A stretch of DNA of 64,000 nucleotides, from the NCBI RefSeq assembly GCF_000297055.2, contig NC_022357.1, forward strand, positions 2,634,501 to 2,698,500, written 5' to 3'. A program made the position numbers and the translations under genes. The DNA comes from Sulfuricella denitrificans skB26 (lineage in GTDB: Bacteria; Pseudomonadota; Gammaproteobacteria; Burkholderiales; Sulfuricellaceae). Shown here piece by piece: positions 6,674 to 28,034 of the stretch (within the stretch, counting starts at the first letter, position 1; each line of letters begins with the position of its first letter). The notes beneath the pieces were generated by a model. The model was not told the origin of the DNA. It saw only the letters and a program-made list of their open reading frames with translations, and did not search any database.

Positions 6674-6731
6674 CGTAAATTCAAGTATCGCAACTACTCA
6701 GCCAAACCCGGCAAAATAATCAATACATCAG

Positions 6732-14048: not shown

Positions 14049-14588
14049 TTATCTTTCCAGTATCTTTCTCAATATCTTGTAGGCGCGATGCGCGGCGACC
14101 TTGACCGCAGATTCTTTCATGCCGATCTTGTCCGCCACTTCTTTGGCGGTATACCCCTCCTGGTGCATCATCTGCAGGATGGCGGCCTGCTTCGGCGGAA
14201 GTTTTTCGATTTCCCCACTGATAGATTCGTAAGTAATGTCGGATTTGGTTACAGGCGCCTGCAAATCATTTTCCACCTCGGACAGTCCGACGGCGTGATG
14301 CAGGTGGTCGGCATAGTGCGCGCGCAAATGATCCTGCAAACGAAACTTGGCGATCGCATAGGCCCAGGGCTTGTAAGGCCGCTCGCCATCGTAGGTATGC
14401 CGCGCTTTGTGGATGGAAATCAGGATTTCCTGCAACAGGTCGTCCACCTCGCTGCTGGAATTAATTCGCCTGGCCAGGAACGGCCGCAGAAAGCGCGCGG
14501 TTTCCTGCAGCAAAACCGCATAGGCCCGCTTGTCCCCGCTCAGGGACAGCTTCATCAGCGCTTCAAAATTTTCCGATTTATCCGTCAT
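14049..14588 (-). CDS. sigF: ECF RNA polymerase sigma factor, SigF-like
   Basis: A 179-residue ECF sigma factor with region 2 (about residues 25-95: DLLQEILISIHKARHTYDG, PYKPWAYAIAKFRLQDHLR) and region 4 (about 120-175: LPPKQAAILQMMHQEGYTAKEVADKIGMKESAVKV). Pairing with a DUF1109 anti-sigma factor places it with the SigF/EcfF type, known in Caulobacter for heavy-metal response and in Azospira for hypochlorite response. The ATG at 14588 is taken; longer frames run over the promoter-like sequence at 14601-14628. Two matching promoters in the window, at the bufferin and msrB operons, are its likely targets. Confidence 0.9.
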   Translation of the reverse strand: MTDKSENFEALMKLSLSGDKRAYAVLLQETARFLRPFLARRINSSSEVDDLLQEILISIHKARHTYDGERPYKPWAYAIAKFRLQDHLRAHYADHLHHAVGLSEVENDLQAPVTKSDITYESISGEIEKLPPKQAAILQMMHQEGYTAKEVADKIGMKESAVKVAAHRAYKILRKILER

Positions 14589-14600
14589 TAAAATTTCGAT

Positions 14601-14628
14601 GTAACCTTTTTTCAGGGCTGTCCGAATA
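14601..14628 (+). promoter_or_regulatory. Putative SigF-type promoter of the bufferin operon
   Basis: GTAACC at 14601-14606 and CGAATA at 14623-14628 are separated by exactly 16 bp, on the strand of the bufferin operon. The element lies 13 bp outside the sigF start on the opposite strand and implies an mRNA leader of about 115 nt. GTAACC-N16-CGAA is the motif I recall for Caulobacter SigF targets. The only other copy in the window that I found precedes msrB at 27452, with additional shared bases GAT before, TTTT after the first box, and TC before the second box. Confidence 0.75.
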
Positions 14629-14677
14629 GGCCAGTACACGGGGCGGCAATAAAATCTACCGGCCAGTTAATTCCCCG

Positions 14678-14699
14678 TGATGTTTAACTTTCAACATCA
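14678..14699. repeat. Inverted repeat in the bufferin leader
   Basis: TGATGTT at 14678-14684 and AACATCA at 14693-14699 flank an 8-nt spacer, 49 bp upstream of the precursor gene. It could be a leader hairpin or an operator for an additional regulator; AT content makes the hairpin weak. Confidence 0.4.
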
Positions 14700-14747
14700 A
14701 ACCAGCTGCAATGATGCCACTTATTAATAATCATGGAGTAATCACCA

Positions 14748-15077
14748 ATGAAAAAACAAACCCTCGTTACCCTCGCCATCGGTTCCGCCTTCACCGTTGG
14801 CGCCTTGATCCCAGTCGCTCATGCCACCAGCGATAACCCATTCGGAGCCAGCAAGTTGAAGTCTGGTTACCAGCTAGCGGAAGCTGATACCAAGATGAAA
14901 GATGGAAAGTGTGGCGAAGCCAAGTGCGGCGCTGACAAAAAAGCAGAAAAGAAAACCGACGCCAAGTGCGGCGCTGACAAAAAGACCGACGCTAAATGCG
15001 GCGCAGACAAGAAAGTCGAAGCCAAATGCGGTGCGGATAAAAAATCTGATGCAAAGTGCGGCGCTAACAAAATGTAA
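14748..15077 (+). CDS. Bufferin/HvfA-type RiPP precursor with KCG repeats
   Basis: A 109-residue secreted precursor: signal peptide of about 26 residues (MKKQTLVTLAIG to AHA), a linker, then a low-complexity tail with six Cys, each in a K-C-G motif (one GKCG, five AKCG). The last four are in near-perfect ten-residue repeats of the form AKCGADKKxD/E. HvfA/bufferin precursors carry comparable EGKCG-type repeats whose Cys are modified by a DUF692 oxidase, giving copper-binding groups. The genes for such an oxidase, its DUF2063 partner and a DoxX protein follow in order, which supports the call strongly. The main departures are Ala/Lys-rich spacing and Asp-Lys-Lys after each motif. Confidence 0.88.
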   Translation: MKKQTLVTLAIGSAFTVGALIPVAHATSDNPFGASKLKSGYQLAEADTKMKDGKCGEAKCGADKKAEKKTDAKCGADKKTDAKCGADKKVEAKCGADKKSDAKCGANKM

Positions 15078-15089
15078 AACAGCGGGACA

Positions 15090-15112
15090 GCGGGCAGGGA
15101 ACTCCTGCCCGC
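15090..15112 (+). repeat. Stem-loop between precursor and oxidase genes
   Basis: GCGGGCAGG at 15090-15098 pairs perfectly with CCTGCCCGC at 15104-15112 around a 5-nt loop. There is no U tract. In RiPP operons such intercistronic hairpins commonly stabilise the precursor mRNA or partly terminate transcription, so that the precursor outnumbers its enzymes; that role is inferred here. Confidence 0.65.
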
Positions 15113-15142
15113 TACTACCAAGACTTAAACAAGGAAGCAAAC

Positions 15143-16009
15143 ATGCCAAACCGCCTGATGTCACCCCTTCGCCATGCTAGTGGAGCAGGCCTGGGTTTCC
15201 GGCGCGAGCTGATAGAACCGATGATGTCCGGCGTTCCGGAAGCGATCCAATTTTTCGAGCTTGCCCCTGAAAACTGGGCAAGCATGGGCGGTCGTTCCGC
15301 CAAACAGCTGCGCCACTTCACAGAGCGCTATCCCTTCGTCTGCCACGGGCTATCGCTGTCGCTCGGCGGGCCGGCTCCTCTGGACGAAGCCCTGTTGCGC
15401 CGGATCAAGGCGTTCATGGCCGAGCATGGCATCAAGCTCTACACCGAGCATCTCTCCTGGTGCACCGATGACAGCCATCTCTATGACCTTTTACCGATTC
15501 CTTTCACTGAAAATGCTGTGAGATGGACGACCGAGCGCATCAAGCGCGCCCAGGACATCCTGGAAATGCAGATCGGCATCGAAAATGCCTCGTATTATGT
15601 AGCCCCACCCGGCGCAGAGATGAGCGAGACAGCATTCATCCGCGCCATCACCGAGGAAGCCGACTGCGCGCTGCACCTCGACGTCAACAACATTTACGTG
15701 AATAGCTGCAATTTCGGCTTCGACGCCCTCGAATTCATGCATGCACTGCCGCTGGAGCGCACCTGCTACGTGCATGTCGCCGGCCATTACGTCGAACCGG
15801 ACGGGCTGCTCATCGACACGCACGGATCCGACGTCATCGACCCCGTATGGTCACTGCTCGAAGCGGCCTACCAGCGCATCGGCGGTGATGTCCCGACCTG
15901 TCTGGAACGTGATTTCAATATACTCGATGTGGGGCTGTTGACCGCGGAAGTCGAGCAGATTGCGCAGCTGCAAGCATATGCGCCCCCCATTCAACGCAAG
16001 GAGGCATGA
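15143..16009 (+). CDS. DUF692 multinuclear non-heme iron oxidase (BufB/HvfB-like)
   Basis: A 288-residue TIM-barrel enzyme of the MNIO (DUF692) family, the class that modifies cysteines in RiPP precursors such as methanobactin, HvfA and bufferins. Likely iron ligands are visible: CHGLSLSLGG (His near residue 68), YTEHLSW, GIENASYYV, HLDVNNIYVN, HVAGH, DTHGSDV and ERDFN. The N-terminal GAGLGFRRELIEPM matches the family start. An AAGGA ribosome-binding site precedes the ATG. Its stop overlaps the DUF2063 gene by four bases, consistent with an obligate two-protein modification complex. Confidence 0.93.
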   Translation: MPNRLMSPLRHASGAGLGFRRELIEPMMSGVPEAIQFFELAPENWASMGGRSAKQLRHFTERYPFVCHGLSLSLGGPAPLDEALLRRIKAFMAEHGIKLYTEHLSWCTDDSHLYDLLPIPFTENAVRWTTERIKRAQDILEMQIGIENASYYVAPPGAEMSETAFIRAITEEADCALHLDVNNIYVNSCNFGFDALEFMHALPLERTCYVHVAGHYVEPDGLLIDTHGSDVIDPVWSLLEAAYQRIGGDVPTCLERDFNILDVGLLTAEVEQIAQLQAYAPPIQRKEA

Positions 16010-16752
16010 TCATGGAAACCGATTTTCAGCAATTCCAGCGTGCCTTTGCCCGCCACATCCGCGACCCGCGCCATGCGCCGCGCCCGGACGGCGTGCCTGC
16101 GCGGCGCATGGCGGTGTACAACGAACTGCTGCTCAATAACGTCTGCGGTTTTCTCGACACCTGCTTTCCGGTTTGCCGCACGCTGCTCGGCGAGGCTCGC
16201 TGGCGTCGGCTCAATCGCACCTTTTTCCGCGACTGGCCATCGCACACGCCGTGGTTCCGCGAAATTTCCCGCGAATTCGTGCGTTATTTGAGCGAATCCA
16301 TGACCCGACAGCCGCTGCCTCGCTGGTTCGCCGAACTGGCGCATTACGAATGGGCGGAACTCGCGGTCGATGTAATGGAGGCGCCCATTCCCGCCCACGA
16401 CCAGACGGGTGACCTGCTAGTCCGGCCCGTGGAACTCAATCCGACGCTGCTGAATCTTGCCTACGCCTGGCCCGTGCATCGCATCGGCCCCAAATATCGG
16501 CCGCGAAAACCGCAGCCAAGCTACCTCGCCGTCTATCGAGATGCCGACGAAGCGGTGCAATTCACCGAAACCAACGCGGTCACAGCGCGCTTGCTGACCC
16601 TGCTCGCCTCCGCGCCCAGCACTGGCGAGACCGCGCTGCGCCAGATTGCAGACGAATTGCAACACCCCGACCCTGAACAACTGATTATCTTCGGCGCCGC
16701 CTTGCTTGATGAGCTGCGCGACCAAGGCATCATTCTGGGAGCACAAGCATGA
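16006..16752 (+). CDS. DUF2063 partner protein (BufC/HvfC-like)
   Basis: A 248-residue protein with an N-terminal DUF2063 domain (FQQFQRAFARHIRDPRHAP; RMAVYNELLLNNVCGFLDTC) and a C-terminal part resembling a peptide-binding RiPP recognition element. Known homologues bind the precursor and assist the MNIO oxidase. Start at 16006 overlaps the oxidase stop (ATGATC), with ATG at 16012 as an alternative. The stop also overlaps the next gene by four bases, so genes 2 to 4 of the operon are translationally coupled. It is cytoplasmic: no signal peptide or membrane segment is seen. Confidence 0.9.
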   Translation: MIMETDFQQFQRAFARHIRDPRHAPRPDGVPARRMAVYNELLLNNVCGFLDTCFPVCRTLLGEARWRRLNRTFFRDWPSHTPWFREISREFVRYLSESMTRQPLPRWFAELAHYEWAELAVDVMEAPIPAHDQTGDLLVRPVELNPTLLNLAYAWPVHRIGPKYRPRKPQPSYLAVYRDADEAVQFTETNAVTARLLTLLASAPSTGETALRQIADELQHPDPEQLIIFGAALLDELRDQGIILGAQA

Positions 16753-17243
16753 AAAAATATCTCGCCGGCTTCTTCGGCAGTCTCGATCTGATCGGTCTTT
16801 GGTCAGGCCTTCTCAGCCTGCGCATCCTGCTAGGCTGGGATTATTTCGAGTCCGGGCTGGAAAAATTCCACGGCGCAAACTGGTTCATGGACATCCAGGA
16901 CAAATTCCCCTTCCCGTTCAGCGTGGTGCCTCCCGAAGTCAGCTGGCAGATGGCCACCTGGTTCGAGTTGATCGGCGGTATCGCCCTGGTGCTCGGACTG
17001 GCGACCCGTTTCTTCTCGGTGTCGCTGATCATATTGACCGTAGTCGCCATCGCCAGCGTACATTGGCCTGAATCATGGAGTACATTTGGCGAACTGATGA
17101 AAGGCTATGTATTTACCGACCGGGGCCACGGCAACTTCAAGCTGCCTATCCTATTCATTGGCATGCTGATCACTCTGGTTTTGTCAGGTTCCGGGCGTTT
17201 CTCGCTAGACCACCTGATACGCGTCAAAACATTGGAAAAATGA
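16749..17243 (+). CDS. DoxX-family membrane protein (BufD/HvfD-like)
   Basis: A 164-residue inner-membrane protein of the DoxX type with four hydrophobic segments. Typical features are SLRILLGWDYFESGLEKFHG in the first helix and loop, TWFELIGGIALVLGLATRFF in the second and third, and a C-terminal LFIGMLITLVLSGSGRFSLD. DoxX proteins accompany many MNIO RiPP operons and are proposed to act in redox or in maturation and export of the product; the exact function is unknown. The start overlaps the DUF2063 stop (ATGA). It is the last clear gene of the bufferin operon. Confidence 0.9.
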   Translation: MKKYLAGFFGSLDLIGLWSGLLSLRILLGWDYFESGLEKFHGANWFMDIQDKFPFPFSVVPPEVSWQMATWFELIGGIALVLGLATRFFSVSLIILTVVAIASVHWPESWSTFGELMKGYVFTDRGHGNFKLPILFIGMLITLVLSGSGRFSLDHLIRVKTLEK

Positions 17244-17315
17244 GACACTTCCCCATTCTCGCAAACGCGACAATTTTGGGCACGGTCTGATGCTCCAGTT
17301 CCGGAAAGAATTTTT

Positions 17316-19235
17316 ATGCGGCAATTTCCCTGGTACAACACCATCCGATTCCGGATCGGCCTCGCGCTGTTCGTTCTTTTCGCCCTCCAGGCGGGCACCG
17401 CTGGCTTCACCCTGTATGAAGTGGATCTGCGCAAACATGATTACGAGATCCTCAATCTCGCCGGGCAAACACGGGTCATCAGCCATACCATGGCGCATCA
17501 GTCGCGCAACTACCTGAAAGAGAACGCGGTCATCGCTGTAACCAGCCCGCGCGACGCTGGCTTCTACTCACAGAATCTGCAGCAGAGCATGGCGCTCTAC
17601 GACAAAATCATCAGCGGCTTCCGCAACCGCCGCCTTGACCCGGAAATCACCGGACTAGACGAGCCACTGACGTGCAGCTGGGACCAGCAATCCCGCAACC
17701 AGCTGGACGTCAGCGCCGCCGCATGGGAAAACTTTCGCCATGGCATGCAACTCGCACTCGACGCTAACCCTTCCCGCCCCGACCTTGCCGCCGCCCGCTA
17801 CGCGGTGCAACACGGTGAAGAACTGGCCCACTCATCGGATAACCTGAGCCGCGCCTTCCAGCACATGATGGAAGGAAAACTCGCCACGATCCGCCTCTTC
17901 AACCAGCTTGCCTTCATTGCCACCGCTTTGCTGACGGCATGGATTGCCATCCTGGTGTACCGCAAGATATTGCGCCCGCTCACCCTCACCGTGGACGGAT
18001 TCTCCCGGGTAGCCAACGGCGACCTGGGCTATCAGGTGCCCCTGGTGGTGGATAACGAGATTGGCCGCATGACGCAGGCTTTCAACCGTCTTTCTGACCG
18101 GATGCGCGGCCTGTTTCACCTCACCGACCGGATCAGCCGGGGCACCAACCTGCACGATGCGCTCAAGTTAGTCTGCGAGGAATTTCGTACTTTTCTACCG
18201 GTGGAATGGGTAGGGGTGCTGCTGCTCACGCCTGACCACCGCCAGGTGGCACTGGAACGGCTTTACAGCGAATCCCCCAGCAGCTTGCAGGAAAACGACC
18301 ATTTCGAATTTGCGCTCGGCGCACCGGAAGCTGCGCTGGCTAAAGGGAACGCACTGGCTATCGACGACCTGGACGCCTTCTCCAGAAACAAAAGTCCCGC
18401 ATTCCTGTCGGCCCAACTGGCGCGCGATGGCAAACGCTCGGCCCTGTTTATCCCCCTGCGCCACAACGGCGGAGGCGAAGCGCTGCTGGTATTCGCCTCA
18501 TCCCAGGCTGGCGCTTATACGCCGGAACACGTCGAATTCCTGTCCAACCTGGCCGGCCAGGTTGGACACATTCTGGGGAAAACCCTCTTTATGGAAGGCC
18601 TGGTCGTCGCCGCCGTGGAGGGCCTGGCAAAACTGGCTGAAAGCCGCGACCCCGAGACTGGCGACCATCTGGTTCGCATGAGCCTTTATTCCGCCATCCT
18701 CGCCGAAGAGCTGGGCAAGGAGGGCCCCTACCGCGAGCGCATTACGCCGGCTTACGTGCGGGATGTATTCCGTTTCGCCCCGATGCACGATATCGGTAAG
18801 GTCGGCATCCGCGACGACATCCTGCTCAAGCCGGGACGCCTCGACCCGGACGAGCGTACCGAGATGGAGCGCCACCCGGTTATCGGTGGGCAGGTGTTGC
18901 GCCGCAGCGAAGAGCAAATGAACGCTCTCGGCCACAGCATCTTCCAGATCGGGATCGAGATCGCCGAAGGCCACCACGAGAAATTCGACGGCAGCGGCTA
19001 TCCTGCTGGTTTGGCAGGCGAAGCCATTCCACTTTCAGCGCGCATCATCGCCGTAGCCGACGTGCTGGATGCCCTGACCTCGAAACGTCCCTACAAGGAA
19101 GCGTGGCCGATGGAAAAAGCCCTGGAAACCATCAACAATGATGCCGGCAAGCACTTCGATCCGGCCGTGGTCGCAGCCCTGCACCGTTCGCTGCCCCGCG
19201 TGATGGAGATATATGAGCGCCTGAAGCACGTCTGA
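17316..19235 (+). CDS. Membrane sensor with HAMP, GAF and HD-GYP domains
   Basis: A 639-residue protein predicted to hydrolyse cyclic di-GMP. An N-terminal helix (about residues 12-33), a periplasmic region of about 165 residues and a second helix (about 200-220) are followed by a HAMP linker (ILRPLTLTVDGFSRVANGDL), a GAF domain (about 275-420) and a C-terminal HD-GYP domain. The catalytic signatures are intact: the MHDIGKVGI HD motif and HHEKFDGSGYP near residue 550. The periplasmic part resembles type-IV-pili/NIT-like sensors but is not assigned. It begins 73 bp after the DoxX gene, so may be read through from the bufferin operon. Confidence 0.9.
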   Translation: MRQFPWYNTIRFRIGLALFVLFALQAGTAGFTLYEVDLRKHDYEILNLAGQTRVISHTMAHQSRNYLKENAVIAVTSPRDAGFYSQNLQQSMALYDKIISGFRNRRLDPEITGLDEPLTCSWDQQSRNQLDVSAAAWENFRHGMQLALDANPSRPDLAAARYAVQHGEELAHSSDNLSRAFQHMMEGKLATIRLFNQLAFIATALLTAWIAILVYRKILRPLTLTVDGFSRVANGDLGYQVPLVVDNEIGRMTQAFNRLSDRMRGLFHLTDRISRGTNLHDALKLVCEEFRTFLPVEWVGVLLLTPDHRQVALERLYSESPSSLQENDHFEFALGAPEAALAKGNALAIDDLDAFSRNKSPAFLSAQLARDGKRSALFIPLRHNGGGEALLVFASSQAGAYTPEHVEFLSNLAGQVGHILGKTLFMEGLVVAAVEGLAKLAESRDPETGDHLVRMSLYSAILAEELGKEGPYRERITPAYVRDVFRFAPMHDIGKVGIRDDILLKPGRLDPDERTEMERHPVIGGQVLRRSEEQMNALGHSIFQIGIEIAEGHHEKFDGSGYPAGLAGEAIPLSARIIAVADVLDALTSKRPYKEAWPMEKALETINNDAGKHFDPAVVAALHRSLPRVMEIYERLKHV

Positions 19236-19310
19236 TGGAATAGCCATCCGATCACTGCCTGAAGCTATCTGGCTGACTGACCCGCAACGACTTCCCGAGC
19301 TATGAAATAC

Positions 19311-19372
19311 CCGGCCGACAAGGCCGATGCCCAGCATGGGCAGAGAGTGCCACTGGATTACGTGCAGGACTG
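19311..19372 (-). pseudogene. Fossil of a second nrsF gene (C-terminal end)
   Basis: Bases 19317-19344 are identical to 13441-13468 within intact nrsF, and similarity continues with substitutions to about 19370. The minus-strand frame reads HVIQWHSLPMLGIGLVG, matching the NrsF C-terminus, then diverges. No other part of the gene is present. It is thus a remnant of a paralogous or duplicated nrsF. The intact gene lies 5.9 kb away in the same orientation. Confidence 0.75.
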
Positions 19373-19375
19373 GAA

Positions 19376-19663
19376 GCTCAGCTAACCCGCCATCAGGAAG
19401 CCCTCTCCGAGCAAGTCAACTGCAGCTCCGCCAAAACACCCGAAGGCAAAGCCGCGATTGCGGATCTGTCGAACAAGATCAGCACAGTCAAAACGCGTAT
19501 CGAAGAGATTGCAAACACCCAACCCAGCCGCTATTCGTCCACACTCAACACCGCAGAAGTCAGCACGCGCAATCAAGCGCCAGAAAAACCCGGCGTCGAT
19601 GCCGCTTCGGCACCGAAGTCAGCCGGCACGGTTACAGGCAGTCGATTGGATGTATTTGCCTGA
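19376..19663 (+). pseudogene. Truncated gene without start codon
   Basis: An open frame of about 95 codons ends at TGA 19661-19663 and has protein-like composition: LTRHQEALSEQVNCSSAKTP, then AIADLSNKISTVKTRIEEIA and a C-terminal TGSRLDVFA. It has no plausible start codon and runs upstream into the antisense of the nrsF fossil. The coiled-coil character with a GSRLDVFA-type tail recalls FlxA-like small proteins. It probably represents the 3' end of a gene broken at the same junction as the nrsF fossil. Confidence 0.5.
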
Positions 19664-19752
19664 TCGGTTTCAGGAAAAATTCATTGAAAGCATGCGCGGC
19701 GCAATAGCCGGTCACGTTTCAGAAACAGGGTGAAGCCCACCCTGTGCGACCT

Positions 19753-20091
19753 TCAGGGTGTGGGTTCCTTGGGCGGCCGCTTATGGAATTTCTTGGCTGG
19801 CCTTTTGCCCTGCTCGCCAGCACCGGCTCTAGGTTGGCCGCCGGGCCGGGGCTGTCCACCGGGCCGAGGCTGACCGGCCGGCCTGGATGGACCGGCTGAT
19901 CTGGGTTTGCCGGCGGATGCCGGTGCGTTCCGTCGAGCGGCTGGCTCATGAGTTTCCGCTCGATTCGCGGAAGCGAGGGTAATCTCCAGTTCGTTGAGCT
20001 CATCCCACTGGGCGTCGGTTCTCAGCCGCTCCGGGATAGCCAGAAGCTCTTGCTGGCGACGACGCGGGGAAATCGGTTCCTGTTCATTCAT
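19753..20091 (-). CDS. Hypothetical protein with Pro/Gly/Arg-rich tail
   Basis: A 112-residue protein of unknown function. The N-terminal half looks folded and helical (RRRQQELLAIPERLRTDAQWDELNELE). From about residue 58 it is a disordered, basic tail of repeated GQPRPGGQPRPG-type units ending in lysines and prolines. Such basic tails often bind nucleic acid or membranes, but that is only a possibility. The ATG is preceded by a fair ribosome-binding region. It lies 39 bp downstream of the DUF3820 gene on the same strand. Confidence 0.6.
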   Translation of the reverse strand: MNEQEPISPRRRQQELLAIPERLRTDAQWDELNELEITLASANRAETHEPAARRNAPASAGKPRSAGPSRPAGQPRPGGQPRPGGQPRAGAGEQGKRPAKKFHKRPPKEPTP

Positions 20092-20130
20092 ATCGGCATT
20101 ATCTCACTATCACCCCAACCTCAGAGTGAA

Positions 20131-20349
20131 TTATTGCTTTCGTAAAGGATCCAGCAGAGAAGACAGACCATTGTGGTCCAGCTCCTGCATCAGCGCCAAC
20201 AGACGGCCGATTTCACCGGAGGGAAAGCCTTCGCGGGCAAACCAGTTAAGGTACCGCCCCGGCAGATCGGCAATCAGGTGGCCTTTGTACTTGCCGTAAG
20301 GCATGACGCGGGTCACCAGGAGCTGCAAATTTTCGGAATTCATCACCAT
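20131..20349 (-). CDS. DUF3820 family small protein
   Basis: A 72-residue protein with the DUF3820 signature: VMPYGKYKGHLIADLPGRYL followed by NWFAREGFPSGEIGRLLALM. Homologues are annotated as putative quorum-sensing-regulated virulence factors or occur as C-terminal parts of exonuclease-like proteins; the biochemical role is unknown. It probably forms a two-gene unit with the Pro/Gly/Arg-rich protein downstream. The first ATG (20349) and a second at 20343 are both possible starts. Confidence 0.75.
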   Translation of the reverse strand: MVMNSENLQLLVTRVMPYGKYKGHLIADLPGRYLNWFAREGFPSGEIGRLLALMQELDHNGLSSLLDPLRKQ

Positions 20350-20606
20350 CTATAGACCCTGCGCGCTTCAACCCAACCCAACTGCACTGTAAAAACAGGT
20401 CAGGTAAGGTGCACATTGTGCCTCGTTCCGCGATGCGCTTCAAATGTTCGCTTTGAACAGGGTCTGCCTGTAAAATCAGGATGGATATTCTACACCTCAT
20501 GCTCTTTCAGGTGCTCGAAGAAGGCCTCCTCCCTACCCGCTGCTCGCGTTTATACGAACCTGACGCTGATCCACGAACGAATATTTTTCCATTATAAATA
20601 TCGCAC
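20350..20606. other. Intergenic region with a possible gene remnant
   Basis: Divergent promoter region between the DUF3820 gene and the second SulP gene. On the minus strand around 20497-20543 a short frame reads GREEAFFEHLKEHEV then stop, which looks like the tail of a lost protein. No hairpin, tRNA or regulatory motif is convincing. Confidence 0.35.
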
Positions 20607-22142
20607 ATGAACCTGAATAGCTGCTCGAATTATACCCTTCCCCGTCTCAAAATTTGCATCCTGAGCGGACTGACCGTTGCCCTGGCTCTGGTGCCCGAGG
20701 CCATCGCCTTCGCCTTCGTGGCTCATGTCCATCCGCTCGTCGGCCTCTACGCCGCCTTTATCATGGGCCTCATCACCGCCGCTTTCGGCGGCCGGCCCGG
20801 CATGATCTCCGGTGCCACCGGCGCGCTGGCGGTGGTAATGGTGGCGCTGGTGGTGCAGCACGGCGTGGAATACCTGTTCGCCACCGTGGTCCTGATGGGC
20901 GTGCTGCAAATCGCTTTCGGCCTGTTGAAGCTGGGCAAGTTCATCCGCATGGTGCCGTTCCCGGTCATGCTGGGTTTCGTCAACGGCCTCGCCGTGGTGA
21001 TCTTTCTGGCGCAGCTGGGGCACTTCAAAACGCCCGCGCCGGACGGCACCCTGGTCTGGATGTCGGGCACGCCGCTCTACACCATGCTGGGCCTCATCGC
21101 GCTGACCCTGGCCATCATCTACCTGCTGCCGCGCCTGACCAAGGCCATCCCCTCAACTCTGGCCGGCATCGTCGCGGTTTCGTTGCTGGTAATCTTTGCC
21201 GGCATCGACACCAAAACCGTGGGCGACATGGCTTCCATCGAAGGCGGCCTGCCGCAGTTCCACTTGCCGCAGGTGCCGCTGTCCTGGGAAACCCTCAGGA
21301 TCATCTTCCCCTACAGCCTGATACTCGCCGCCATCGGCCTGATCGAATCCCTGCTGACGCTCAACCTGATCGACGAAATGACCGACACCCGCGGTATGCC
21401 CAACCGGGAATGCATGGCCCAGGGCTCCGCCAACGTCGTCACCGGCTTCTTCGGCGGCATGGGCGGCTGCGCCATGATCGGCCAGAGCATGATCAACGTC
21501 AGCAACGGCGCTACCCAGCGCCTGTCCGGCATCGCCGCCGCGCTGTTTCTGCTGACCTTCATCCTGTTCGCTTCGGAGTGGATCGAGATGATCCCGCTCG
21601 CCGCGCTGATCGGCCTGATGTTCATGGTCTCGGAAAAAACCTTCGAATGGGGCAGCCTGACCACCCTGCGCAAGGTGCCGCGCAGCGACACGTTTATCGT
21701 CGTCGCGGTCACCCTGATCACCGTGTTCACCGATCTGGCCATCGCCGTGATCACCGGCGTGATCATCGCCGCACTGGTGTTCGCCTGGCAGCACGCCAAG
21801 CACATCAACGTGCGCACCTATCTCGACGACAAGGGCTGGAAAATCTACGAGCTGGAGGGTTCATTGTTCTTCGCCTCGACGGCGGAATTCCAGACCCTGT
21901 TCACCCCCAAAGACGATCCGGACGAAGTGGTGGTGGAATTCCGCCGCGCCCGCGTCATCGACCATTCCGCTATCGAAGCCATCGACAGCCTGGCCAGCCG
22001 CTATCAGCAGGCCGGCAAGCGCCTGCACCTGCGCCATCTCAGCCCGGACTGCCTGGAGGTCCTGACCAACGCCAAGGACATGGTGGAAATCAACATGGGA
22101 GAAGATCCCCATTACCACCTTGCGGACGACAAGCTGGGGTAA
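20607..22142 (+). CDS. SulP-family anion transporter with STAS domain (second copy)
   Basis: A 511-residue inner-membrane SulP transporter. The conserved opening [20 protein letters not shown] is followed by about ten more hydrophobic segments with the glycine-rich [16 protein letters not shown] and [20 protein letters not shown] regions. A C-terminal STAS domain (about residues 415-505) includes [19 protein letters not shown]. It is shorter and differs in sequence from the SulP at 2.6 kb, so the two are paralogues of different subgroups; bicarbonate or sulfate are equally possible substrates. No clear ribosome-binding site precedes the ATG. Confidence 0.92.
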
Positions 22143-22313
22143 TCCTGCTATGCGTATAAACCAGGCCGGAACGACGGGCTTCAAACCCGGTATATTACGT
22201 TAATAATCAATGCGATGCCAGGTCAGCGTAACAGAGACTCGGTTTGACACACAAGGTGACTGGGCGCAGACTGCCGCGCATTCGCAAACCATGAAGCACC
22301 ACAGGAGAAGAGA

Positions 22314-22592
22314 ATGTCCAAGAAACGATTCCACTGCCAAGCGGTTATTCACGAAGGCATCAAAAGCATCAGCATCACCGATGACGCGCACCATTTCTGC
22401 ATCACATTGGAAGACGCAGGCAATAGACTCACCGCCCTAAAAGAAGCCCTCGCCATCGGCAAATATCCTATCGCCATGGAACTGGTGGACTCCTGTGCCA
22501 AATTGATGGCCGGCCCAACCGTGAAATATCACGTCACACAACACGACGCCGAGAAGTTTCTCCATTCGCTGGATAAAGCGCTGCACCATTGA
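22314..22592 (+). CDS. Small hypothetical protein
   Basis: A 92-residue soluble protein of unrecognised family. It has a good AGGAG ribosome-binding site and a strong terminator 20 bp after the stop, so it is very likely expressed as its own transcript. Composition is alpha/beta with many histidines (DDAHHFCITLEDAG, KYHVTQHDAEKFLHSL, ending HH) and two cysteines in the central part. Metal binding is possible but not demonstrated. Confidence 0.6.
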   Translation: MSKKRFHCQAVIHEGIKSISITDDAHHFCITLEDAGNRLTALKEALAIGKYPIAMELVDSCAKLMAGPTVKYHVTQHDAEKFLHSLDKALHH

Positions 22593-22612
22593 GACGCAAG
22601 CACACAAAAATG

Positions 22613-22640
22613 AAAGCCTCGCAGGGATGCGAGGCTTTTT
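22613..22640 (+). terminator. Rho-independent terminator
   Basis: AAAGCCTCGC pairs with GCGAGGCTTT around a 6-nt loop and is followed by a T tract, 20 bp after the stop of the 92-residue protein gene. The A residues on the left side give partial function on the other strand. Confidence 0.9.
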
Positions 22641-22852
22641 GTTTGTAGCATTTTCAAGGTCGTAAATTGTGATCTTAAACACTAGCCTTGTCTGATAAGG
22701 TACCCGCCGTTCACCCGGTGTGTTTCCCGTTGCCGCTATGGCCACAGATGGCATTAAGCAGAAGTTTATGACGCAACAAATTCGACGAGTGCCCGCGAGT
22801 GATGGCGGGCCAAGATCTCTAATTAACAGCCGGCTATTTAAACCGGACGCCA

Positions 22853-23245
22853 TCAGCGCACCCATAACAGATACACACAGCTGACGGCCACGGCCCCAAG
22901 AATGGCGATAACGGCCAGCAGCAATCGCCGCTGCAATCCCACTGCCTTGATGAGCTGGGAATTCTGATCGGCCAGCGCCTTGATCAGTTCGGCAGACGAC
23001 ACCATTTCCCGCTGCAGATCCGCCACATTGGCCTCGAGTGAAGACACCCGCAACTTAACGGCCGCGATGGCCCGTTCATCGGGCGTAAGCTCGTGTTCAA
23101 TTTCAGCGTTGTCCGCCGTGGACTGCGTTTTTTTCTTGCCCACGACTTTCCAGAGCTTCTTGGCGCCGTCGACAACCAGCGGGGCATTGCTCACAACGTC
23201 AGCCCAAGGGACCAACTTCAGTGCGGCGAACAAGCTTATTGCCAT
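22853..23245 (-). CDS. Hypothetical protein with coiled coil and C-terminal anchor
   Basis: A 130-residue protein. The N-terminus (residues 1-35) is amphipathic, a basic KKLWKVVGKKKTQ stretch follows, then a predicted coiled coil (about 55-100: VKLRVSSLEANVADLQREM) and a single C-terminal membrane helix (LLLAVIAILGAVAVSCVYLLW). This is tail-anchored architecture. I do not recognise a family. It is transcribed in the same direction as the GFA-family gene but upstream spacing of 53 bp leaves co-transcription uncertain. Confidence 0.6.
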   Translation of the reverse strand: MAISLFAALKLVPWADVVSNAPLVVDGAKKLWKVVGKKKTQSTADNAEIEHELTPDERAIAAVKLRVSSLEANVADLQREMVSSAELIKALADQNSQLIKAVGLQRRLLLAVIAILGAVAVSCVYLLWVR

Positions 23246-23297
23246 GGTTCATCTCTCCTGTAATGGGGTTGCCTGATGTTTCGACTCCGGGCGGCAG

Positions 23298-23711
23298 TCA
23301 GCGTTCGTTGCGACCCGGCTCATAGCCTTCATACTGGGGCAAGTCGCCGCAGATCTCTTCCCAGTTGGCCTTCGACGTGGCGAAGATATGTGCCACAGGC
23401 CGTTCCTCGATATCCGAATCAATCGTGCCGAGCCGCACGCGGACGTCATCCGGCCTTGATTCCGACTTGCTCAGGATCGGGGAGCCGCAGATCTTGCAGA
23501 AGAATTTTGTCTGCCCTGACGTGGACTCGTAACCCGTGAGCGCATCTTCCCCGGCAGTAATCCTGAAGCCGGAAGCCCTGACGATGCCGTTAGTGGCAAA
23601 GGCGCTGCCCTGGGCCTTGCGGCATTGAGAGCAATGGCAATAAACGATGTTGCGTATCGGGCCATCGATTTCGAATCGGACAACGCCGCAAAGACAGTCC
23701 CCTGTAACCAT
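23298..23711 (-). CDS. GFA-family (glutathione-dependent formaldehyde-activating-like) protein
   Basis: A 137-residue zinc protein of the GFA/CENP-V fold. Zinc cysteines are seen as GDCLCGVVRFEI at the N-terminus, YCHCSQCRKAQGSAFAT near residue 25, and FFCKICGSPI near residue 70. Most family members have no proven formaldehyde chemistry. The start at 23711 (MVTGDCLCG) is chosen because AAGGAG lies 7 nt upstream and the gene then begins one base after the symporter stop. The longer frame from 23741 would overlap the symporter. Confidence 0.88.
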   Translation of the reverse strand: MVTGDCLCGVVRFEIDGPIRNIVYCHCSQCRKAQGSAFATNGIVRASGFRITAGEDALTGYESTSGQTKFFCKICGSPILSKSESRPDDVRVRLGTIDSDIEERPVAHIFATSKANWEEICGDLPQYEGYEPGRNER

Positions 23712-23712
23712 G

Positions 23713-24999
23713 TCAGCTCCTTTGTAAAGCCGGTTCGCCAAGTACGTCCGGTTCTCCGGTCCGCCGTGCGATGATCACGGCCCCGCAGGAATCGCTGAAT
23801 ACATTCACCGAGGTGCGGCACATGTCCAGCACGCGGTCCACCGCCAGAATCAGGCCGATCGCCTCCACCGGCAAGCCGATGGCCGCCAGAATAATGGCGA
23901 TGGCGACCAGGCTGGCCGAGGGAATAGCGGCCACGCCGATGGAGGTGACCAGCGACATCAGCACGATGGTGAATTGCTGCACGAAACCCAGTTCGATACC
24001 GTACGCCTGGGCAATGAACATCGCCGCCACGCATTCATATAAGGCCGTGCCATCCATGTTGACCGTCGCACCCAACGGCAACACAAAGCTGCTGGTACGG
24101 TTGGAAACCCCCGCCTCTTTTTCCACGCATTCCATGGTAAGCGGCAGCGTGGCCGCCGATGAGCTGGTGGAAAAGGCCGTCAGCAGAGCCGGCGCCATGG
24201 CGCGATAGTGGCGCAGCGGATTGACCCGCCCGACAAAAAACAGCAGCAAGGGCAGCACCACCAGAAAATGTACCGCCAGCCCCGCCATCACGCTGATAAA
24301 AAACCACGCCAGCGGCACAAAGGCGGAATAGCCGGTGCTGGCCACCACCTTGGCAACCAGCCCGAAAATGCCGATCGGCGCGAACTGCATCACCCAGTCG
24401 GTAATTTTCATCATCACCTGGAAAAACCCTTGCCAGAAGTTGTACATGCTTTCCGCGTAGGCTTCCTCGATCTTGGTCATGAAGTAGCCGAACAACAGGC
24501 TGAAGAAAATCAGCCCGAGCATCTGGCCATCCGCAGCCGCCGCAATCACGTTGGTGGGCACCATGCGCAGGAACACCCCGACCAGATCGCCGGTGCCTTT
24601 GCCTTCGACCTTGGCGACTACGTCGCTGACATTCGCAGACATCCCGAGCAAATGCTTTGCCGGTTCGCCATCCACCATGCCCGGCGCCACCGCATTGACG
24701 ATGACAAGCCCCACCAGAATGGCCAGCAGGCTGGTCGTCAGGTAATACAGCAGAGTCTTCAGGCCCAGCCTGCCGAATGCACCGCCCGAGCCGATACCGG
24801 CGATACCGACGATGATGGACGACACCACCAGCGGCACGATCAGCATCGTCAGGGCATTCAGGAACAGCGTGCCGATAAAGTCGAACGCCGCATAAAAGCG
24901 CACGCCCAGCAGTTCCGCGCTGGTTCCCGCCAGCGAACCGGCAATCACGGCCAGCGCCAGCGCAATAAGGATTTGCCAGTGCAGTTTCAGTTTCATCAT
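23713..24999 (-). CDS. Dicarboxylate/amino acid:cation symporter (GltP/DctA family)
   Basis: A 428-residue transporter of the DAACS family. It has eight helices and the re-entrant signatures ALLTAFSTSSSAATLPLTM (serine-rich hairpin 1) and FVLPLGATVNMDGTALYE (TM7 NMDG motif), then IPSASLVAIAIILAA (hairpin 2) and VDRVLDMCRTSVNVFSDSC (TM8). These identify glutamate/aspartate or C4-dicarboxylate uptake driven by protons or sodium; specificity cannot be fixed. ATG at 24999 or 24996 follows an AGGG sequence. The GFA gene follows one base downstream. Confidence 0.92.
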   Translation of the reverse strand: MMKLKLHWQILIALALAVIAGSLAGTSAELLGVRFYAAFDFIGTLFLNALTMLIVPLVVSSIIVGIAGIGSGGAFGRLGLKTLLYYLTTSLLAILVGLVIVNAVAPGMVDGEPAKHLLGMSANVSDVVAKVEGKGTGDLVGVFLRMVPTNVIAAAADGQMLGLIFFSLLFGYFMTKIEEAYAESMYNFWQGFFQVMMKITDWVMQFAPIGIFGLVAKVVASTGYSAFVPLAWFFISVMAGLAVHFLVVLPLLLFFVGRVNPLRHYRAMAPALLTAFSTSSSAATLPLTMECVEKEAGVSNRTSSFVLPLGATVNMDGTALYECVAAMFIAQAYGIELGFVQQFTIVLMSLVTSIGVAAIPSASLVAIAIILAAIGLPVEAIGLILAVDRVLDMCRTSVNVFSDSCGAVIIARRTGEPDVLGEPALQRS

Positions 25000-25103
25000 C
25001 CCTGGGTACCTGTTTGAAGAGTGGGTAAATACAAGCATATCCTAACCTGATCTGCAAAATGCCTTAAAATCACGCTTTCCGATAACGAACACGAAACGCA
25101 AGC

Positions 25104-25808
25104 ATGAGTGAAAATACACCCGACCCCTACGCCTACATGGCCGAACTGCCAGACGGCCTGAGCGAAACCGAGAAGGCCGAATTCGGCCAACAGCTGATCG
25201 AAAAGAAGCTCCAACTGGAGCGCAGCTCAGGCGCCGACACGCTGGAACGCGCCCGGCTGAAACTGGATATTGCCGAACTGCTGGTTTTGCTGGAGCGCAA
25301 GGAAGAAGCCTGGAATCTGGCGCGCGAGGCTTTCGATACCGCATTGAAAAATGAATCGTGGCAAGATGCCGTGGAAGCCTGCAACGTGCTTTACCAGACC
25401 GAACAGGCCGCCTCGATTCCCGCCCTGGGCATGGGCGTCTGGCTGGCGGTGACTTTCCCGGTCACGCCTGAACTCACCTATGCCATGCTCGACCATGTCG
25501 TCACCGAAACGCCCAACAATTCGGACGGCGCAGCGCTCGCTGCCGTCACCACGCGCTACGTGATCGACCTGCGCGCTAACGATGAAGAGCACGGAGACTG
25601 GAGCCTGCTGGCCGACAACCTCATCGCCCGCGTTGCCGAGCGCCACAGCAAAGTGCAGGATCAAAAGGCGCTGGATGCGTGGATGGACAAGCTGGGCCTG
25701 CGCGACCCGCAGGTGTTTCTGCCCCGGCTGAGTCAGGTGGTGAATGCCATCGTCGGCGATGCGTGGTGGTTTGATCGGGATGAGCTGCGGGATAAATTGC
25801 CGGATTAG
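25104..25808 (+). CDS. Hypothetical cytoplasmic helical protein
   Basis: A 234-residue acidic protein without signal peptide or membrane helix and not recognised by family. It is rich in helices and begins with a region that resembles TPR-like pairing (LLVLLERKEEAWNLAREAFDTALK). A conserved-looking middle segment, ALGMGVWLAVTFPVTPELTYAM, and the C-terminal VGDAWWFDRDELRDKLP stand out. It is transcribed divergently from the symporter, with 104 bp between the start codons. Codon usage fits the host. Confidence 0.6.
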   Translation: MSENTPDPYAYMAELPDGLSETEKAEFGQQLIEKKLQLERSSGADTLERARLKLDIAELLVLLERKEEAWNLAREAFDTALKNESWQDAVEACNVLYQTEQAASIPALGMGVWLAVTFPVTPELTYAMLDHVVTETPNNSDGAALAAVTTRYVIDLRANDEEHGDWSLLADNLIARVAERHSKVQDQKALDAWMDKLGLRDPQVFLPRLSQVVNAIVGDAWWFDRDELRDKLPD

Positions 25809-26020
25809 TCGCTACTAGTCGTTAGGGTTGCCGAAGACAGGTAGATAGGCGCTCTCTAGGCCAGCGGCTGTTAAAGCCTTGGCTGGCTCGCCGGTTCGGA
25901 CAAATCTAGGCACTGGATTATTGTGGTTAACGTTTGATATTAGCAACGTCTAAATTCACCGGCCTGTACGGCTTTTTGCGCAGGTCCGGTGGAATGACGG
26001 GTTGGGCATCATCCAGAAGA
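25809..26020. other. Intergenic region with inverted repeats
   Basis: Between convergent genes. CACCGG-N-CCTG and CAGG-N-CCGGTG arms at about 25959-25991 can form a stem around a 14-nt loop on the minus strand, a possible terminator for the secreted protein gene downstream of it although the U tract is poor. It marks the left edge of the AT-rich patch. Confidence 0.35.
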
Positions 26021-26386
26021 TCACTTAACCCTCCTGATCTTCGTTCTTTGCTCTTTCACCAGCGGCAGTGCTGCACTAACAAATGGCAGCAAGGGGTTTT
26101 CTCTACAATGTTTGTCAATGTATAGGACAAGCGTTGTGTTGTCCGGCAGGGCTGTGAGCGGAACCTCGTAAGAAACGCTACCGAAGTTGTAGCCAGAGAC
26201 AAAACCACGAAACCAAAATAGGTAGGTCTGACGGGCGACCGAATCGCTCTGCGATTCAGTCCAATTGCCACAGGACGTATTTTCGAAACTGAATAGAGGG
26301 AAAGGAGCTTCTTCCGCAGCTGTTGCAAGAAACGGAGTAATTAGAACGAGAGCAGTGATAACGGCAGTCAAGCGGATCGACAGCAT
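26021..26386 (-). CDS. Secreted hypothetical protein, Rap1a/Tai-like pattern
   Basis: A 121-residue protein with a signal peptide (MLSIRLTAVITALVLITPFLATAA). The mature part follows the order C-x-x-W (SCGNWTE), YLFWFRGFVSGYNF, LYIDKHCRENPL and PLVKEQR, which resembles small periplasmic proteins of the Rap1a/Tai type, some of which are immunity proteins for secreted amidases. The likeness is faint and no effector gene is visible. Start ATG 26386 follows GGAG at long spacing. It lies in the AT-rich patch and has looser codon use than the flanking genes. Confidence 0.5.
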   Translation of the reverse strand: MLSIRLTAVITALVLITPFLATAAEEAPFPLFSFENTSCGNWTESQSDSVARQTYLFWFRGFVSGYNFGSVSYEVPLTALPDNTTLVLYIDKHCRENPLLPFVSAALPLVKEQRTKIRRVK

Positions 26387-26408
26387 GGTATATGTATCTC
26401 CAATCAAA

Positions 26409-26675
26409 CTACTTCCCAGTTACTGGATCTTTAGAGCCGTCCTTGCCACTGTACGGGTTTACGTTACCTTTAGTTGACCAGTTGTCGTACTTGCTATGGT
26501 TCGGATTTGTGGCGTTCGATGGCGCAACGTATGTTCCATCTTTCTTTACATAGCCTTTGATACTGTGACTCCCACCGGTCGAGCTGTACCCGACGCTTGA
26601 GTGACTGCCACCTTTAGCAAATACTGGTGCAGCCGCAAGTGCTCCGACTAAAAATATGATGGCAACTTTTTTCAT
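26409..26675 (-). CDS. Small secreted Gly/Ser-rich hypothetical protein
   Basis: An 88-residue protein with a signal peptide (MKKVAIIFLVGALAAAPVFA) and a mature part with GGSHSS/GGSHSIKGY repeats, then SIKGYVKKDGTYVAPSNATN and YDNWSTKGNVNPYSGKDGS. The second half matches a widespread small-protein pattern with unknown function that often occurs near mobile DNA. A GGAG sequence at 9 nt supports the ATG at 26675 over the ATG at 26687. It lies 22 bp upstream of the next secreted-protein gene on the same strand, so both may be co-transcribed. Confidence 0.65.
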   Translation of the reverse strand: MKKVAIIFLVGALAAAPVFAKGGSHSSVGYSSTGGSHSIKGYVKKDGTYVAPSNATNPNHSKYDNWSTKGNVNPYSGKDGSKDPVTGK

Positions 26676-26780
26676 GGGTTTCTCCATAGCTAAAAATGGT
26701 TGGCACGTCTGAATATGATGCCCAACTTGTAGCTAACCGGATGGCCGGTGGTTTATCGGCCAGACCGGTTGAGCGTAGGG

Positions 26781-27137
26781 TTAGGTTTGTTTTGTTCCAA
26801 TGATGAAACATGTTTGCATAATAACAACTAAGCATAAAATTAAAGCTATAAGTGTTGCACTAGCGACCGTTATAGCTTTATCAGCCAAAGGGCCAAAAAT
26901 CATGAAAGCAGCAAGGGAAATGCTCGCAATCAAACTAACACCACCGACATTTACAATATCCCGTTTAACTTTCGTTAAACGCTGGATAGCCGTTGAAATT
27001 GTTATTTCAGGAGCGTTGTTTGCAATATCTATTTGGTATTTAAGCAATGAGGACTGGTATTCAACGATACTCTTCGCCAGCACAAGTGCCGCTGTTAATG
27101 TGGCGAGTAGGCTTGCAAGGAAAATAAGGATGGTCAT
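26781..27137 (-). CDS. Small hypothetical membrane protein
   Basis: A 118-residue membrane protein with three hydrophobic segments (about residues 4-23, 65-85 and 90-112) and a hydrophilic first loop (VEYQSSLLKYQIDIANNAPE). No family is recognised. Codon use is AT-rich, unlike the neighbours. Ribosome-binding signal is weak (TAGG). It could equally be read as a cargo gene of a lost mobile element. Confidence 0.5.
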   Translation of the reverse strand: MTILIFLASLLATLTAALVLAKSIVEYQSSLLKYQIDIANNAPEITISTAIQRLTKVKRDIVNVGGVSLIASISLAAFMIFGPLADKAITVASATLIALILCLVVIMQTCFIIGTKQT

Positions 27138-27451
27138 GCTAAAACCTAACGTAAAGTAGACACCCTAAAATGCACCGGCAAAGGCACCTTCGAAGTGTAT
27201 AAACTGGAAACTTGTGTGCAATGCAATGATTTCAATGAGGCACAATTTTTGTGCATCCCCTAATTATTCTGATAAATACACCATCTCATTTCTGTTGCGT
27301 ATTATTTTTATATTACCCCCCCGTCCAAGTAATACTGGGGCTACGGATACATTACCCGTAACAGCCCCACTTTAATACAGGGTTTCCCCTATTTTATTCT
27401 GCTTACATAAACCAACCTCTGCCTAGCATCCCAGCATGACGCATTGAAGAT
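27138..27451. other. AT-rich non-coding region
   Basis: No credible ORF, tRNA or long repeat. The sequence is AT-rich with runs such as TATTATTTTTATATTA and a C7 tract near 27320. A hairpin TGGGGCT and AGCCCCA arm pair occurs near 27346-27372. It ends at the SigF-type promoter of msrB. Confidence 0.5.
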
Positions 27452-27479
27452 GTAACCTTTTCCCGCTACGCTCCGAATA
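27452..27479 (+). promoter_or_regulatory. Putative SigF-type promoter of msrB-dipZ-msrA
   Basis: GTAACC at 27452-27457 and CGAATA at 27474-27479 are separated by exactly 16 bp, as upstream of the bufferin operon. The shared flanks (GAT before and TTTT after the first box, TC before the second) lift the match beyond the core. It lies 60 bp upstream of the msrB start codon, giving a leader of about 55 nt. Recognition by the SigF-like factor at 14.0-14.6 kb is inferred. Confidence 0.75.
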
Positions 27480-27539: not shown

Positions 27540-28034
27540 ATGGACAGACGGATGTTTATCAGACTGGCGACCAGCGGGGCAGGCATTCTGGCCTTGCCGC
27601 AGCTTTTCATGTCAGGCATGGCAATTGCGGCGGAGCGCATAGCAAAGCTCAGCAAGACCGATGCCGAATGGAAAAAACTGCTGACGTCGGCGCAATACGA
27701 CGTGCTGCGCCAGGAAGGCACCGAGGCGCCGTTTACCAGCCCGCTCAACAAGGAAAAACGCGACGGCGTGTTTGCCTGCGTGGCCTGCGATCTGCCGCTA
27801 TTCCCTTCTAAATTCAAGTACGACAGCGGCACCGGCTGGCCGAGTTTTTTCGATGTGCTGCCCGGCCATGTAGAAACTACCACCGACTACAAGCTGGTGC
27901 TGCCGCGCACCGAATATCACTGCGCGCGCTGCGGCGGCCACCACGGCCATGTGTTCAATGACGGTCCAAAACCCACCGGCCTGAGGTACTGCAATAACGG
28001 CGTGGCTTTGAAATTTATCGCGGACAAGGCATAA
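27540..28034 (+). CDS. msrB: Peptide-methionine (R)-S-oxide reductase, Tat-exported
   Basis: A 164-residue MsrB that reduces methionine R-sulfoxide in proteins. A twin-arginine-type leader (MDRRMFIRLATSGAG) predicts export to the periplasm. The zinc Cys pairs FACVACDLPLF and YHCARCGGHHGH and the catalytic region GLRYCNNGVALKF are present, with the HVFNDGP motif between. Cytoplasmic MsrB lacks such a leader. It is followed 4 bp later by dipZ and then msrA, so the operon supplies both stereospecific reductases and their electron donor. Start ATG follows GAGG/GGAAG. Confidence 0.93.
   Translation: MDRRMFIRLATSGAGILALPQLFMSGMAIAAERIAKLSKTDAEWKKLLTSAQYDVLRQEGTEAPFTSPLNKEKRDGVFACVACDLPLFPSKFKYDSGTGWPSFFDVLPGHVETTTDYKLVLPRTEYHCARCGGHHGHVFNDGPKPTGLRYCNNGVALKFIADKA

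Follow-up and report, generated by a model that had tools for sequence, protein, structure and literature searches.

Within a 64-kb stretch of the genome of Sulfuricella denitrificans skB26 (the window: the whole stretch of 64,000 nucleotides that we analysed), the promoter-like motif GTAACC-N16-CGAATA occurs at 14601-14628 and again at 27452-27479, as a sequence-only reading of this DNA had placed it. The first copy lies between sigF, a minus-strand gene for an extracytoplasmic function (ECF) sigma factor, and an operon for a ribosomally synthesized and post-translationally modified peptide (RiPP); the second lies upstream of an operon made up of msrB, a DsbD/thioredoxin fusion gene and msrA, which encode a methionine sulfoxide reductase (Msr) system. 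The features at the two loci are as follows.

13406..14041, minus strand: nrsF, membrane anti-sigma factor (Pfam NrsF PF06532, E 4e-47)
14049..14588, minus strand: sigF, ECF sigma factor, with its ATG at 14588 (Sigma70_r2 and r4)
14226..14253, minus strand: SigF-like element TGTAACC-N17-CGAA inside sigF, pointing at nrsF (conserved sequence and third-base constraint)
14598..14628, plus strand: predicted SigF-type promoter of the hvf operon, -35 box 14601-14606 and -10 box 14623-14628 (extended motif match)
14634..14747, plus strand: 5' leader in common with relatives' mrpX leaders, GC stem CACGGGG/CCCCGTG close to its probable 5' end
14748..15077, plus strand: hvfA-type (EGKCG) RiPP precursor, signal peptide by eye (NF050137 HvfA-family domain over cut-off; no Pfam family)
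15143..16009, plus strand: hvfB-type MNIO maturase (PF05114; NCBIfam HvfB family, 393.9 of 360 bits)
16006..16752, plus strand: hvfC-type partner (DUF2063, NGO1945_C)
16749..17243, plus strand: hvfX/DoxX family membrane protein (domain matches)
27449..27479, plus strand: predicted SigF-type promoter of the msr operon, -35 box 27452-27457 and -10 box 27474-27479 (extended motif, footprint, nrsF co-occurrence)
27540..28034, plus strand: msrB, Tat-like leader RRMFIRL by eye (SelR; TIGR00357 over cut-off)
28039..29685, plus strand: DsbD-like membrane domain fused to thioredoxin-like domains (DsbD_TM, Redoxin, Thioredoxin_10)
29709..30353, plus strand: msrA, Sec-like leader by eye, GCFWG motif (PMSR; TIGR00401 over cut-off)

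The sigF-nrsF pair reported to adjoin the first copy is thus there, and it belongs with the ECF16 SigF/NrsF systems: an ECF sigma factor with regions 2 and 4 stands beside an NrsF-family anti-sigma factor, and both motif copies fit the ECF16 target-promoter consensus (T/C)GTAAC-N17-CGAA given in the cited text of PMC8315932. SigF is 70-98% identical to 11 aligned relatives, and in 78 of 79 related loci sigF is directly followed by nrsF. The NrsF protein exceeds the Pfam NrsF cut-off and scores 46.6 bits against the NCBIfam AntiSigF_NrsF equivalog, below its cut-off of 300. In the second operon MsrA, MsrB and reductant-donor domains were all matched; export of the two enzymes, which a periplasmic Msr system would require, is predicted by eye from the leaders, and the DsbD/thioredoxin fusion protein is the likely supplier of reductant.

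The RiPP operon had been called a bufferin operon, a name that we replace. Its maturase reached only 243.6 of the 310 bits set for BufB and its precursor matched no Pfam family, where a bufferin operon has DUF2282 (Buf1), while HvfB, HvfC, HvfX and the HvfA-family domain all scored over their cut-offs; the full-length HvfA equivalog stayed below (27.9 of 95). Judged by these family matches, the operon is of the HvfA type (EGKCG), not bufferin proper, and it resembles the HvfABCX operons for oxazolin or captophorin, the products with which the cited texts equate the EGKCG class (PMC12452194; PMC12668002), in its EGKCG precursor, HvfB MNIO, HvfC and HvfX. Peptides of this class are expected to bear copper-binding 5-thiooxazole cysteines. 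Other SigF-type loci of the order (G066, G109, G133) carry DUF2282 precursors instead, according to Pfam.

Both motif copies share their flanks, as claimed, and have the common form GATGTAACCTTTT-N10-TCCGAATA. The motif itself is identical to the GTAACC-N16-CGAA motif that the cited parts of a Caulobacter study report for SigF from 5' rapid amplification of cDNA ends (PMC3511200), which bears out the earlier attribution to a SigF/NrsF-type system. To see how rare it is, we scanned the genome (two contigs, 3,217,213 bases). The bare form GTAACC-N15-17-CGAA matched 21 times against 25 times for the reversed pattern, that is, at chance level; 16 of the other 19 matches fall within open reading frames of at least 100 amino acids, and the three outside (L001, L003 and L014, position 1501) are intergenic GTAACC-N17-CGAA sequences lacking the T run, possibly weak sites or chance. 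The shared 31-nt extended form, with up to three mismatches allowed, occurs at two genome sites only, namely the two copies, and its reversed control not at all, which argues that these two sites are not due to chance. A looser form, TGTAACYTTT-N13-CGAA with one mismatch, added two places (reversed control, 1), one antisense in a Sel1-repeat-like gene and one in a tilS-like gene, both named by eye; as both lie within genes, we rejected them as additional intergenic sites of ordinary spacing. Taken together, the extended and looser scans put the number of such sites in the genome at two. For the 16-base spacer, the earlier statement that no other site in the window has a correct second box is right; it overlooked a minus-strand GTAACC-N17-CGAA within sigF, at 14252-14226, to which we return below.

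We then asked whether the motif accompanies sigF in other genomes. Searching with 12 aligned SigF proteins, we took the best 80 of 138 relatives, mostly Gallionellaceae and Nitrosomonadales with some Alphaproteobacteria, and dropped one locus (L256) with too little upstream DNA. The motif adjoins sigF and points away from it in 65 of the 79 remaining loci, and in none does it point toward sigF within 500 nt upstream, so that an own SigF-type promoter for sigF was not found in the window's clade; a sigma-70 promoter for sigF was not found either. By comparison, 500 sets of permuted boxes placed beside sigF gave a mean of 0.06 and a maximum of 4 loci, and the 1.12 Mb around the sigF genes held 103 motif copies versus 1 for the reversed control. 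Base frequencies gave the clade consensus TGTAAC[CT][TA]TTT-N12-CGAAT, which makes the T run after the -35 box part of the consensus; the TTTT singled out in the window belongs to this run, three positions of which are conserved at 94-97% across the clade. Within 8 kb of sigF, tblastn matched MsrB in 53, MsrA in 44 and the DsbD fusion in 39 of the 79 loci, and the motif lies at most 700 nt upstream of the MsrB matches in 39 of the 53 loci and of MNIO matches in 15 of 18. Seven loci have both an MNIO and an Msr gene, and in three of them (L246, L248, L271) the motif precedes both. Genome G002 holds further copies, at L079 4187 (minus strand) before a small gene and at L091 1753 (minus strand) before an MsrA/MsrB-type fusion gene.

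The msr copy lent itself to a comparison between genomes with and without nrsF, nrsF-positive meaning an NrsF match over the Pfam cut-off. Among the 22 genomes of the window's family we found 10 msrB-type genes better than 1e-40; the motif lies upstream in all 8 nrsF-positive genomes, the window's included, and in neither of the two genomes without an NrsF match (G010 and G004). When the 260 nt upstream of nine of the family's msrB genes are aligned, the motif stands out, and the leader and ribosome-binding site behind it are partly conserved; G010 retains the second box, but its -35 box has decayed. The 150 nt before the motif retain residual similarity in only 1 of 28 pairs of the 8 nrsF-positive family genomes (G000-G005). 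For the wider comparison 87 msrB rows were scanned, 81 from an order-wide search and 6 of the 28 from the family search, of which 4 of the 10 rows under 1e-40 were already in the order set and 18 weaker rows were left out (one of these, L042 in G002, has the motif about 1 kb upstream). Among nrsF-positive genomes, 15 of 22 (15 of 25 rows) have the motif in the 400 nt upstream of a close msrB homologue, against 0 of 50 nrsF-negative ones (0 of 62 rows), giving a Fisher p of 1.5e-10 by genomes that is too small because of kinship; outside the window's family the counts were 7 of 14 versus 0 of 48 (Fisher p = 7e-6, too small for the same reason). Gene maps came from a simple codon-score caller, so small genes may be missed.

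From these data we consider it very probable that both sites are promoters of one ECF sigma factor, SigF, which is encoded beside the first and held by NrsF, an account that includes the capture of an mrpX-type promoter by the hvf operon discussed below. The proposal of one ECF switch for the RiPP and Msr operons thus gains support from the co-occurrence of nrsF with the motif upstream of msrB and from the footprint there. Chance, or simple shared ancestry without selection, is scarcely credible: the bare motif is at chance level and the compared genomes are related, but the extended motif is unique to the two sites, permuted and reversed controls are near zero, and in 27 of 28 genome pairs the DNA just before the msrB motif has lost its similarity. 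There is a small probability that the two sites serve a different sigma factor as promoters or a different regulator as binding sites, with sigF nearby by accident. Other ECF factors are very probably encoded in the genome, and SigF binding at the sites is a prediction; against this explanation, the motif upstream of msrB is confined to nrsF-positive genomes in the examined set, it adjoins sigF in most of the loci, and it equals both the Caulobacter SigF and the Brucella ECF16 consensus as these are given in the cited texts.

Several observations weigh against control of both operons by SigF. The motif lies within 700 nt upstream less often for MsrA (11 of 44 loci), the DsbD fusion (18 of 39) and MsrP (1 of 8); near sigF, the MsrA and DsbD-fusion genes are usually not the first of their operon. 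In seven of the 22 nrsF-positive genomes the 400 nt before msrB contain no motif; G147 has msrB within a longer operon that follows a motif, and G066 and G109 have motifs only in the neighbourhood. The compared genomes are related and some nrsF-negative ones are incomplete (G010 89%, G004 87%), so that the Fisher values overstate the case. Only 4 of 36 EGKCG loci have the motif before the operon, all four in the window's family, and four EGKCG loci without it are in nrsF-positive genomes; among the 36, G134 and G160 have no EGKCG precursor visible to our script, and four loci are ended by contig edges. Finally, the cited parts of the Caulobacter study report msrA homologues as unchanged (PMC3511200).

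Where the hvf promoter came from is suggested by mrpX, a gene for an MrpX-like small methionine-rich secreted peptide that follows the motif in G003, G005, G002, G017, G001 and G006 and is also present in G014; the peptide matches the NCBIfam MXKDX repeat family below its cut-off. A search of the 22 family genomes gave these seven carriers and a short remnant in G013. We rejected the presence of mrpX in the window's own genome, as tblastn in the window gave no credible match and a genome-wide search no match at all. Over 122 bp, the promoter regions of mrpX in G005 and of hvf in the window are 88.5% identical, a leader of about 100 nt is common to mrpX and hvf units, and G005 keeps both units. 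From this likeness we infer that duplication supplied the SigF promoter and leader now used by the hvf operon. On this view the hvf promoter and leader have a common ancestor with those of mrpX, and the RiPP operon apparently came under the control of a SigF promoter that already existed. Elsewhere, at 19246-19363, the site where G005 has mrpX with a SigF promoter, the window has none. Beside sigF, the mrpX unit is a remnant in L076 (G013, about 3040-3231) and gone in L074 (G015, about 5870-6680), where msrA comes after the leader.

The same observations could mean that the msr copy is real and the hvf copy a relic of a lost mrpX unit, with the hvf operon expressed mainly by other means. This is a shade less probable still than another regulator at both sites. 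The G005 likeness speaks for a relic, as does the lack of the motif at most EGKCG operons in relatives. However, four genomes of the family, the window's, G005, G019 (C27) and G017 (C13), retain both motif and leader before hvf, and in G017 sigF lies on another contig than the hvf operon; in addition, no sigma-70-like site was found in the hvf intergenic region, a weak test. We retain the reading of the hvf copy as a probable SigF promoter. In the leader we looked for covarying structure and rejected it, since none of 7 pairs had changed on both sides, which leaves the stem a plain stem; nor was a credible known RNA family found there, the single weak match being to an unrelated viral family below cut-off. 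Directly behind hvfX, at 17316-19235 on the plus strand, lies a gene for a HAMP-GAF-HD-GYP protein; since it also follows hvfX in G005 and G017, it may be part of the hvf operon. In G014 this gene is near msrA instead.

The element inside sigF was studied in 81 sigF genes, the window's and those of the best 80 of 138 relatives, which encode proteins with 49-98% identity to the window's SigF. TGTAAC-N18-CGAA is present in 78 of them. Just before GTA stands a codon whose third base is T in 78 of the 81 genes, although the amino acid that it encodes varies widely. GTA is the only valine codon used in the element, and the single leucine is encoded by CTA; in the codon before GAA the third base is C in every gene, including those with F, S or H in place of tyrosine. 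The third base is at least 95% conserved in 7 of 169 codon columns of sigF, and 6 of these 7 lie within the element. An explanation by the protein alone is disfavoured, because the third-base constraint is concentrated in the element and holds also where the amino acid differs. The spacer is one base longer than in ordinary targets: with N17 between TGTAAC and CGAA we counted 101 copies elsewhere and 2 inside sigF, and with N18, 77 copies inside sigF and 5 elsewhere. Given this odd spacing and the missing T run, the element need not be a strong promoter. An order-wide set gave 28 sigF genes, no sigF being found in 2 of its 30 loci. In the close clade (at least 65% identity) the element is present in 12 of 13 genes and the motif points toward sigF in none of 13; in the distant clade (31-38% identity) the element is present in 0 of 15 and the motif points toward sigF in 11 of 15. 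The exception in the close clade, G133, has sigF downstream in a gene row that starts with the motif. Several of the named loci apparently come from genomes that also carry a G number (L231 and G005, L281 and G133), so the close-clade sets overlap with the larger set; the distant clade does not.

Based on its sequence, we read the element as a putative weak SigF promoter for nrsF; alternatively, it may serve as a binding or pausing site. The excerpts cited describe intragenic promoter-like sequences that bind holoenzyme without transcription or cause pausing (PMC10771440), and a Caulobacter sigV driven from inside the neighbouring gene cabp (PMC13171946). Among the matches listed from literature on intragenic promoters, on anti-sigma and ECF factors and on ECF16/NrsF, there was no report of a conserved intragenic sigF element. 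We give about an even chance to the proposal that this is a SigF-recognition element under DNA-level selection, aimed at nrsF, which replaces a self-activating promoter and writes a delayed negative feedback into codons. With the element in place of a self-activating promoter, active SigF would make more of its own inhibitor rather than more SigF. If this is true, an anti-sigma feedback element is encoded within the sigma-factor gene.

The proposed mechanism would run as follows. The membrane anti-sigma factor NrsF would hold SigF until oxidant or metal stress in the envelope, the presumed inducing signal, inactivates it. SigF-RNA polymerase would then start the hvfABCX operon, yielding a periplasmic RiPP that may bind copper, and msrB-dsbD/trx-msrA, whose products, if exported as predicted, would repair methionine sulfoxide in the periplasm, drawing on electrons transferred through the membrane.

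Known systems share parts of this scheme. According to the cited text, Caulobacter SigF controls two RiPP operons and its own gene (PMC3511200). The window resembles that ECF16 system in its motif and in a sigma/NrsF pair beside a RiPP operon with MNIO and DUF2063 genes; it differs in that Caulobacter sigF has its own SigF-type promoter, the RiPP there is, according to papers on MNIO enzymes, of the bufferin (DUF2282) type and the msrA homologues do not respond, whereas in the window the motif precedes msrB-dsbD-msrA and an HvfA-type RiPP is encoded. A SigF-type promoter of the own sigF gene is, in the cited texts, a feature of Caulobacter and Brucella and need not define the family. Perchlorate reducers are described with SigF/NrsF, MrpX and YedYZ, sometimes with MsrA/B predicted to be exported (PMC4623255); two perchlorate islands carry such MsrA/MsrB, as here. 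Unlike the window, that system and Brucella BcrS/AbcS-bcrXQP (PMC8315932) use an MsrP/YedY type reductase, the cited sections of both describe no copper RiPP, and mrpX is absent from the window's genome. HvfABCX operons of the order, for their part, are mostly without a SigF motif. In Neisseria (SigE/MseR, PMC2893595) and Haemophilus (RpoE2/HrsE, PMC7907618), the cited parts report that MsrAB and a cluster with a DoxX gene are under the control of a single ECF factor; in Neisseria this cluster includes the DUF2063 gene NGO1945 and on that ground is probably the one that makes gonophorin, described as an EGKCG-class peptide (PMC12668002). As far as those texts go, these systems are unlike the window in having a small ZAS-type or related anti-sigma protein rather than NrsF, different promoter boxes (GTAAGGTT reported in meningococci) and MsrA and MsrB in one protein.

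The pairing of a DoxX-containing cluster with Msr under an ECF factor is thus already known, and as far as the cited papers show, its NrsF-type form with an HvfA-type peptide is new. Since the similar pairing in Neisseria and Haemophilus involves an anti-sigma factor of an unrelated type, more than one origin of such joint control is suggested. In sulfur- and iron-oxidising betaproteobacteria, the sequences suggest, copper sequestration and methionine repair, both parts of the defence of the envelope, would be joined under one NrsF-type ECF switch.

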